A DNA stretch of 64,000 bases, from NCBI GenBank assembly GCA_947494995.1, contig CANLWY010000003.1, positions 1 to 64,000 of the forward strand, read 5' to 3'. The translations under genes were made by a program, and so were the position numbers. Below, one piece after another: positions 47,079 through 49,412 of the stretch (the first letter of the stretch is position 1; each line of letters opens with the position of its first letter). Origin of the DNA: an uncultured Campylobacterales bacterium (lineage in GTDB: Bacteria > Campylobacterota > Campylobacteria > Campylobacterales > Arcobacteraceae). The notes under the pieces are model-generated. The model saw nothing but the letters and a program-made list of their open reading frames with translations. It did no database searches and was not told where the DNA came from.

Positions 47079-48335
47079 ATGAAAGACATAAACCAATTAG
47101 TAGAAACTGCATTAAAAAACCTTAAAGACAAAAATCTATTAGCAACTCCTGAAAACTATGAAAGAGAGTTTTATAAATTAAGTAGAAAACATGAACTTCT
47201 TGTTGAAGAAAGAGTAGAGTTTGATGATATTAAAGAGTCTCTATGTAAAAGTGAGAGAAAAAAACTCAATTCTAAAAAAGAATCATATAAAGAGCTATCT
47301 CGGATATTAAAACAAAGAGTTGATGAGGATGAAATAAAGTATTTTTTATCAAATCTTTCTTATTTTATGTCTCCATCTTTATATAAAGAGTTAAAAATAG
47401 AAATTGATGAAATATGTAAAGAACTTTCATTAAATCCAAATGATCTGTTTGATAGTGAAACATCAAGAAATTTAAGACGTTATAATGATTTAAGAATTAA
47501 AAAAGATAAACTTGTTTTCAATGAAAAGAGCAATGATGTTAAAAAATTAATTATTTTTTTAGGTAAGCTACTTAAAAAAATAATTAAAGAAAATAGTTTA
47601 ACTATGGATAGAGTATTAGATTTAAAAGATGAAATAAAAACAATTGAGTTATCAAATTCTTCTTCAAAACACATGGCAATATTACATGAAAAACTAATTA
47701 AAGGAATAGAGTCTTTTGAAAAAGTGCTTAAAAAAAGTAATAAAAAGATTTTAACATCAAAAGAAGATAACAATTCTTTATATATGGAGATTGAAAAATT
47801 AAAAGAGAATTTAGATAAAGCAGAAGAAGAAAAGTCAATAGACTTTTTAACCGGGGTTCTTACAAGACGTGCATACTCTATAGAAGTTGAAAGAGTTGAA
47901 AATGAATATAGTATTTTTGATACAAAGTATGCAATTGTTTTTTATGATATAGATCATTTTAAGAAGGTTAATGACTGTTACGGACATGATTGTGGTGATA
48001 AGGTTTTAGCTACATTTGCTTCAATATTAAATAAACTTACGCGTAGTGAAGATGTTATTTCAAGATATGGTGGTGAAGAGTTCATTTGTATTATTCATTA
48101 TAAAAATATAATTGAAGTTAAAAACTATTTAAAAAGAGTAAGAAATATAGTAAGTAATAATAAGTTTGTATATAAGGACATAAAACTTGATATTCAATTT
48201 TCTGCGGGGGTTGCTTTTAGAAATATCTATACTTCCTATGAAGATACTATAAAAAGTGCAGATAAACTACTTTATAAAGCTAAATATGATGGTAGAAATA
48301 TGATTATTTTGGATAATGGAGATATCATAAAATAG
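47079..48335 (+). CDS. Diguanylate cyclase (GGDEF domain, intact)
   Basis: A 418-residue soluble protein. Residues 1 to about 240 are helical and charged, ending in a coiled coil that would promote dimers. The catalytic domain (about 255-415) starts SIDFLTGVLTRRAYSIEVER, has FYDIDHFKKVNDCYGHDCGD and the intact signature RYGGEEF. An inhibitory-site RxxD (RSED) lies five residues before GGEEF, so product feedback inhibition is likely. It ends in KADKLLYKAKYDGRN-like sequence (SADKLLYKAKYDGRNM). No membrane segment and no known sensor domain is seen at the N-terminus. Confidence 0.93.
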   Translation: MKDINQLVETALKNLKDKNLLATPENYEREFYKLSRKHELLVEERVEFDDIKESLCKSERKKLNSKKESYKELSRILKQRVDEDEIKYFLSNLSYFMSPSLYKELKIEIDEICKELSLNPNDLFDSETSRNLRRYNDLRIKKDKLVFNEKSNDVKKLIIFLGKLLKKIIKENSLTMDRVLDLKDEIKTIELSNSSSKHMAILHEKLIKGIESFEKVLKKSNKKILTSKEDNNSLYMEIEKLKENLDKAEEEKSIDFLTGVLTRRAYSIEVERVENEYSIFDTKYAIVFYDIDHFKKVNDCYGHDCGDKVLATFASILNKLTRSEDVISRYGGEEFICIIHYKNIIEVKNYLKRVRNIVSNNKFVYKDIKLDIQFSAGVAFRNIYTSYEDTIKSADKLLYKAKYDGRNMIILDNGDIIK

Positions 48336-48341
48336 ACAAAA

Positions 48342-48398
48342 TTATGGAGACTACTAATAAACTATGCCGCGCGTTAGTTAATTAGTTAAACTCCATAA
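48342..48398. other. 57-base nested stem-loop with GC-rich loop
   Basis: Outer stem TTATGGAG (48342-48349) with CTCCATAA (48391-48398); inner stem ACTAAT-A-AACTA (48353-48364) with TAGTT-A-ATTAGT (48375-48386), one A-A mismatch; loop TGCCGCGCGT. The stretch fills the gap between the convergent diguanylate cyclase and HTH genes. It lacks a T tract, so it is not a typical terminator. Confidence 0.55.
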
Positions 48399-48409
48399 CT
48401 TTAGCTACT

Positions 48410-48622
48410 TTAGGAAACTCTTGTTTTTGTCAAATCAATTTCACTTTCGATAAATCTTTTTTGCTCAATCATAAATTCTAAGTGTTTTTTTAAAAGTTCT
48501 CTATCTTTATATGATTCAATAATAAATTCATAGAGCTTCGGTCTATTTTTTTTCCAATTATGAAGTGTTGTTTTATTTACTTCTAAATCAGCTTCTAGTT
48601 TTCTAAAACTTGGTGATGTCAT
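48410..48622 (-). CDS. Small putative helix-turn-helix DNA-binding protein
   Basis: 70 residues. FRKLEADLEVNKTTLHNWKK reads as a helix-turn-helix (about residues 6-25), followed by NRPKLYEFI and a basic-acidic helix to the end; the pattern W-K-K-x-R-P-x-L-Y is common in small phage-like or toxin-antitoxin-type regulators. AAGGAAGAGAG precedes the ATG. It is divergent from the uracil-DNA glycosylase gene across three 42-bp-spaced repeats, which makes autoregulation through those sites likely. Function otherwise unknown. Confidence 0.65.
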   Translation of the reverse strand: MTSPSFRKLEADLEVNKTTLHNWKKNRPKLYEFIIESYKDRELLKKHLEFMIEQKRFIESEIDLTKTRVS

Positions 48623-48645
48623 CTCTCTTCCTTGTGTAAATTGTA

Positions 48646-48752
48646 TTGTACAAATAATTTAAACAAATGTCAATAATTATATCAAATATGTACAAATAAA
48701 TGGGACAAATTATTACAAAAGTAGTTTTTTTGTACAATTTCATATGACAAAA
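48646..48752. repeat. Three iteron-like repeats at 42-bp spacing in a divergent promoter
   Basis: Copies at 48646-48668, 48688-48710 and 48730-48752 share the core WTGTACAAWT and an ACAAAW element 17 bases from the copy start. Starts are 42 bp apart both times, four turns of B-DNA. The core is a TTGTACAA palindrome. Copy 1 overlaps a TACAAT that could serve as -10 box for the small HTH gene, and copy 3 runs into the start codon of the glycosylase gene. Confidence 0.75.
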
Positions 48753-49412
48753 GCAGTAAAAAATAGAATTTTATATCAATTAAACTTTTTAAAATCAATA
48801 GGTTATGATTATCATGAGGTGGTTAAAATATCCAATAAGGAGTTAAATAGTAGCTCTTTACCAAATGATATTAAAGAGTTAGAAAGTTTAGCTGAAAATT
48901 GCTATTTATGTGAACTGTCAAAATCAAGAAGAAATGTTCTTTTTGGTGAGGGTAATATAAATGCCTCATTAATGTTAATTGCTGATGAGCCAACTGCAAG
49001 TGAAGATGAATTAAAAAGTTTTTTCGTAGGAAAAACAGGAGAACAGCTTGTAAAGATGATAGAGAATGTACTTCCTTTGAAAAAGGAGGATGTATATATA
49101 ACAAATCTAGTTAAATGTAGAAGTTTAAATGGGATAAATGCTTCTCATTTTAGTTCTTGTAGTTCATATCTTTATAAGCAAATTGAACTTGTAAATCCAA
49201 AATTAATAGTTACTTTTGGAGAAAAAGTTTATCAATATTTATTAAATGATACATCAAGTTCCTTTAATCAAATAAGAGGACAACTTACAAGTTTTAGAAA
49301 CTATAGTGTAATTCCAACACATAGTGTGAGTTTTTTACTTAGAAACCCCTCTTCAAAAAAAGATACTTTTCAAGATATGTTAAAAATAAAATCTATTCTG
49401 GAGTCAAATTGA
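48744..49412 (+). CDS. Uracil-DNA glycosylase, [4Fe-4S] family 4-like
   Basis: 222 residues. Four cysteines fit the iron-sulfur pattern of family 4: Cys53 and Cys56 (NCYLC), Cys125 (VKCRS) and Cys139 (SSCSSYL). LSKSRRNVLFGEGNINASLM and the C-terminal LLRNPSSKKDTF are also typical. Motif 1, usually GEAPG, reads ADEPT, and the HPS motif reads HSVS, so substrate preference may differ. The first 45 residues are an extra N-terminal stretch. No ribosome binding site precedes the ATG. The downstream lipoprotein gene overlaps by four bases. Confidence 0.85.
   Translation: MTKAVKNRILYQLNFLKSIGYDYHEVVKISNKELNSSSLPNDIKELESLAENCYLCELSKSRRNVLFGEGNINASLMLIADEPTASEDELKSFFVGKTGEQLVKMIENVLPLKKEDVYITNLVKCRSLNGINASHFSSCSSYLYKQIELVNPKLIVTFGEKVYQYLLNDTSSSFNQIRGQLTSFRNYSVIPTHSVSFLLRNPSSKKDTFQDMLKIKSILESN

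Follow-up and report, generated by a model that had tools for sequence, protein, structure and literature searches.

The 64-kb stretch of DNA analysed here (hereafter the window) belongs to the chromosome of an Arcobacteraceae-like family member. Within it, two genes that point away from each other flank an intergenic region carrying a set of regularly spaced repeats: on the minus strand, a 70-aa HTH gene (48410..48622, including the stop codon) whose product we predict to be an autoregulator, and on the plus strand, a gene for a 222-aa uracil-DNA glycosylase (UDG)-like protein (48744..49412). The HTH gene is neighboured in the window by a GGDEF gene, infA and the UDG-like gene, none of them a restriction or modification gene, and the wider chromosomal neighbourhood consists of ribosomal-protein, secY and infA genes. 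The repeats each bear the hexamer TGTACA, reading TTGTACAAAT at 48646, ATGTACAAAT at 48688 and TTGTACAATT at 48730, and each is followed at an equal offset by ACAAA, such that successive copies are spaced by 42 and 42 bp. To this extent the sequence agrees with a preliminary description of the locus, which had reported three cores at these positions, each with a second element. TGTACA alone is not enriched in the window (19 observed vs. about 15 expected). However, this is the sole case in the window of an equally spaced TGTACA triple (spacing 8-100), and when the window was dinucleotide-shuffled 400 times, no such triple arose. The equal 42-bp spacing of the three repeats is not chance. What the repeats represent is a separate matter, and comparative evidence argues for two palindromic operators (predicted) and one promoter as opposed to three equal iterons.

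Aligned intergenic regions of orthologous loci yield an operator consensus in the form of a palindrome, TTTGTTCC-N7-GGAACAAA, in which the arms of the dyad are what had been described as the core (TGTACA) and second element (ACAAA) of each repeat. The first and second repeats correspond to the predicted operators O1 (48645..48667) and O2 (48687..48709). A matrix trained only on operators from loci outside the window's genus, and scanned over both strands of the 64 kb, ranks O2 first (25.5 bits) and O1 second (22.5 bits), with the third-ranked site reaching only 11.1 bits. The third repeat scores 5.8 bits and ranks 15th in the window, and the earlier view of three equivalent copies is accordingly not sustained. 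O1 is interwoven with the core promoter of the regulator's own gene. The -35 box of this promoter (TTGACA, 48668..48673, minus strand) is identified by its sigma-70 match and its conservation in orthologues, and the -10 box (TACAAT, 48645..48650, minus strand), whose TA..AT is kept in the O1 column profile, sits within the right arm of O1, as had been anticipated for one of the repeats. Together the two boxes match sigma-70 at 11 of 12 positions with a spacer of 17 nt. TTGAC(A/T) is kept at -35 in nearly all HTH orthologues and its start lies at an identical offset from O1 in 62/62 loci; O1 therefore fills the spacer of the HTH promoter, its centre at about -19 relative to the predicted transcription start. 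The right arm of O1 reads TGTACAAT because the -10 box also sits there, and for the same reason the conservation of O1 is in part conservation of the promoter. In many genomes of genus g11 this arm is changed to TATAAAAT, resulting in a lopsided dyad.

The distance between O1 and O2 is 42 bp in 51 of the 62 orthologues, 43 bp in 10 and 41 bp in one, and the phasing of four helical turns proposed for the window alone is thereby upheld across species. The distance from O2 to the -10 of the UDG-like gene is tighter than this, being constant in 59/62 loci, whereas that from the -10 to the ATG is more variable, taking its modal value in 45/62. Relative to the predicted transcription start of the UDG-like gene, O2 is centred at about -46. 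One locus (L018) lies on a contig that ends before any UDG-like gene would be reached; dyads 42 bp apart persist there upstream of the HTH gene, and a third full dyad, TGTTCCAATAATAAGAACA, follows O1 at 42 bp on its downstream side, which places it between the promoter and the start codon.

The third repeat is best read not as an operator but as the UDG-like gene's -10 box together with its start codon. The predicted promoter of this gene (48717..48738, plus strand) comprises AAAAGT, a T-tract and the -10 box TACAAT at 48733-48738. The TGTACAAT of the third copy is this -10 region, and its ACAAA falls in the conserved first codons of the gene, ATG ACA AAA (Met-Thr-Lys). Many relatives lacking the HTH gene hold TTTTTTTGTACAAT or TTTTTTGTAAAAT 5 nt before the UDG-like ATG, without O1 and O2. 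Moreover, on the phylogeny, a sign test shows no association between TGTACA at the UDG-like -10 and presence of the HTH gene (median p of 1), though seven supported independent pairs afford low power. Of the original claim regarding this copy, the overlap with the UDG start codon holds while the role as operator is not supported. In two loci, L105 (TGTACAAA) and L114 (GGAACAAA), the UDG-like gene is further off, yet a half-site persists at 42 bp from O2, hinting that some genomes may have a third site. With its -10 box about 5–6 nt before the ATG and no Shine-Dalgarno, the UDG-like gene has the kind of leaderless promoter known from Campylobacterota; in C. jejuni, nth and mutY, both DNA-repair genes, are among the leaderless genes (PMC3847290). 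We therefore predict a leaderless mRNA, with the difference that the start here is a prediction from sequence.

Of the 104 genomes covered by a family-wide search, 62 have the HTH gene, at 60–91% identity among orthologues, with Arcobacter, Aliarcobacter, Poseidonibacter and Malaciobacter as the named relatives that carry it. Wherever the HTH and UDG-like genes are found on one contig, they are divergent. Each of the 62 HTH-bearing loci has a site that scores 18 bits or more. HTH-less genomes lack the operator pair, and the regions upstream of UDG in 43 of them score at most 10.4 bits, all but one below 5. This maximum, in L127, overlaps the low end of genuine loci, since the weaker operator of the pair scores only 8–13 bits in a few of them (L004, L111, L014 and L017). 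A tree of the UDG protein requires the HTH gene to have been gained or lost seven times or more on supported branches, and the sites are missing each time the gene is. The preliminary description had staked its proposal on the repeats being conserved near orthologues of the HTH gene; a search beside those orthologues found the dyads conserved there and absent where the gene is lacking. Its assignment of the sites to the adjacent HTH protein, a prediction as regards binding, is likewise upheld by these comparisons. Four HTH-less genomes of the window's genus (L032, L034, L035 and L037) hold an (A/G)CAAAT half-site upstream of the UDG-like gene at the former O2 position, which is possibly a relic of a lost operator.

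Exact matches to TGTTCCAWWWWTTKGWACA over the 104 genomes are few and occur mainly at the HTH promoter, though this is a strict consensus that the window's own O1 and O2 do not match exactly. The recurrent off-locus matches that were read fall in infB coding sequence, several of them in HTH-less genomes, and because off-locus consensus matches are mostly of this kind, a wider regulon is not claimed. This distribution suggests a predicted regulon of one intergenic region. A looser pattern search of the window's own genome, permitting three mismatches, was uninformative because the DNA is so A+T-rich, returning 2256 matches against 2383 in a reversed control.

The HTH protein itself belongs to no Pfam or NCBIfam family, giving only sub-threshold matches in both, neither of which recognises an Xre/HTH_3-type domain in it. 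Similarly, a PDB profile search and Foldseek returned no confident structural homologue, and matches in PHROGs were not significant. The orthologues nonetheless share an invariant core, N-K-T-T-L-H-N-W, and an AlphaFold2 model (mean pLDDT 94.7) places helices at residues 6-13, 17-26 and 28-69, amounting to a compact HTH with a long third helix. This long helix suggests a dimer, and the protein probably dimerises through it. Distant small HTH relatives occur in Campylobacterota, and a scan of viral contigs gave one distant match of 25 residues, in the IMG/VR contig L219, which encodes a distant small HTH relative (TLYNWEKSRPKLYNFIM). The HTH family has mobile cousins. The orthologues themselves are chromosomal and occupy one fixed Arcobacteraceae locus, which lends no support to the phage-like regulator that had been envisaged.

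A further conserved element is found on the 3' side of the HTH gene. About 10 nt past the stop codon lies a long hairpin (48333..48407, minus strand) with a conserved, GCGCG-type loop. Its outer stem consists of 17 pairs that are paired in 96% of cells of the alignment, 8 of the 17 changing on both sides, and its covariation score was matched by 0 of 500 shuffles; when the alignment was slid as a control, the paired fraction was only 33–49%. A covariance model built without the window's copy recovers the window hairpin (3.4e-5) and, across 20 genomes, finds the hairpin in 11/11 that bear the HTH gene and 0/9 that do not. There is one hairpin per genome, with the stronger match on the HTH strand; two second matches elsewhere are marginal (E about 0.03). 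An earlier search with a loop pattern, TCGCGCNNTTTAAAAAGT, was weak because its spacing misfit the window's genus, and is superseded by the covariance model. No Rfam family matches the hairpin, and a simple terminator scan detected no terminator of the T-run type there. One possibility is a terminator acting in both directions, another a 3'-derived RNA.

The product of the divergent gene has the UDG fold by Pfam (PF03167, 4.3e-26) but falls below NCBIfam cut-offs, scoring 115.1 vs. 125.3 for TIGR00758 and 123.5 vs. 250 for NF040953. Like the family 4 UDGs (UDGa) and UdgX, it has a C-x2-C and two later cysteines for the Fe-S cluster, as well as LLRNP after motif B, and the four cysteines are kept in all loci of the motif table; the observations on cysteines and motifs concern the window gene together with loci L001-L055 and L086-L138. 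Unlike those enzymes, in which motif A is GE(A/G)PG and motif B is HPS (as defined in PMC10359453), the window protein reads ADEPT and HSVS, respectively. In most of the family motif A is xDEP(S/T) or worse, and the HPS of motif B has given way to S(P/V/A)x in the majority while being retained in a minority; five out-group loci (L044-L048) are canonical in these motifs. The window's genome has a second UDG-superfamily gene elsewhere, as do most of the counted relatives. Because motifs A and B are changed and most counted genomes have this second gene, the link to uracil repair drawn in the preliminary description appears doubtful.

Taken together, we think it very probable that a local autoregulator is controlled from this intergenic region, with two operators and autorepression from O1. 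The HTH protein, likely as a dimer, would bind two palindromic operators whose centres are 42 bp apart. Given this spacing, bound dimers would sit on the same side of the helix, where cooperative binding could occur. Occupancy of O1, between the -35 and -10 boxes, would block RNA polymerase and so bring about negative autoregulation, and O2 would stabilise that occupancy from the same helix face. O2 probably acts on the UDG-like promoter as well, since the spacing between them is almost invariant. From its centre at about -46, it would modulate the divergent, predicted leaderless promoter either up or down, a position that fits activation as well as repression of the UDG-like gene.

It is this last point on which the most serious alternative turns. 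In an arrangement akin to that of lambda, protein bound at O2 would touch RNA polymerase and activate the UDG-like promoter while O1 represses the HTH gene. The UDG-like promoter has no -35 consensus, O2 is centred just upstream of where a -35 would be, and the O2 to -10 distance is rigid in 59/62 loci compared with the 51/62 and 45/62 given above for O1–O2 and -10 to ATG. Against this, HTH-less genomes keep the core of the UDG-like promoter without O2, so the promoter can presumably function by itself, and a rigid O2 spacing is compatible with repression too; we consider activation plausible but tentative, and would not favour it at present. A bolder reading, speculative and on balance rather unlikely, is of an Arcobacteraceae-unique and repeatedly lost cassette that combines phased operators, an HTH protein of an undescribed family and a covarying hairpin with a conserved loop. 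It would reciprocally switch two targets, its own gene and a leaderless UDG-like Fe-S protein that has altered motifs and a function other than ordinary uracil excision.

Distinctly unlikely, to our minds, is a three-site switch of the kind put forward in the preliminary description, in which the third copy (48730-48751) would be a weaker but true operator from which the protein directly blocks the UDG-like -10. Such a site would account for the exact 42-bp phase of this copy in the window and for the half-sites kept at phase in L105 and L114, and it is consistent with genus g11, where HTH-bearing genomes have TGTACA at this -10 and, of the HTH-less genomes that the UDG tree assigns to the genus, just one does. 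Yet the copy ranks poorly in the matrix scan, TGTACA does not track the HTH gene on the tree (within the low power of seven pairs), TGTACAAT is kept in HTH-less relatives and is missing from HTH-bearing genus g13, and the second arm is coding sequence, with variable arm spacing. Far less probable still is that the repeats are replication iterons or mark a plasmid or phage origin. Direct repeats with a 42-bp period, set in A+T-rich DNA and adjoining a small HTH gene, would suit an origin, but every unit forms a dyad located within a promoter, the gene neighbourhood in the window holds no initiator gene, and the locus is chromosomal, lying beside ribosomal-protein, secY and infA genes at the same place in many species. 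We regard this possibility as very nearly negligible.

Under the two-operator reading, an unclassified protein family gains a precise and testable predicted binding site along with a regulon that is apparently one intergenic region, and the count of operators is corrected from three to two. Two further features are newly flagged. One is the conserved RNA hairpin on the 3' side of the regulator gene; the other is that, across the family, a protein which would be annotated as a uracil-DNA glycosylase has altered catalytic motifs. Should O2 control the UDG-like gene, the locus would constitute a minimal two-promoter switch for which natural knock-outs are available for comparison.

Two known systems help to place this arrangement in context. 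In those governed by the controller (C) proteins of restriction-modification loci, the linked enzyme gene is downstream or divergent, and the operator sites are closer together than 42 bp. C proteins (for context, PMC6237814) resemble the predicted regulator here in being small HTH autoregulators with paired dyads in their own promoter and a linked enzyme gene. The HTH protein differs from them in having no restriction or modification neighbour, in the 42 bp between its operators, and in not being recognised as Xre/HTH_3 by Pfam. Lambda OR, the target of CI and Cro, has three operator sites at about 24 bp, whereas the present locus has two predicted sites at 42 bp, one regulator and a location that is not in a phage. 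What the two have in common is their design: helically phased operators, predicted ones in our case, that are common to two divergent promoters, with one operator placed inside a promoter.
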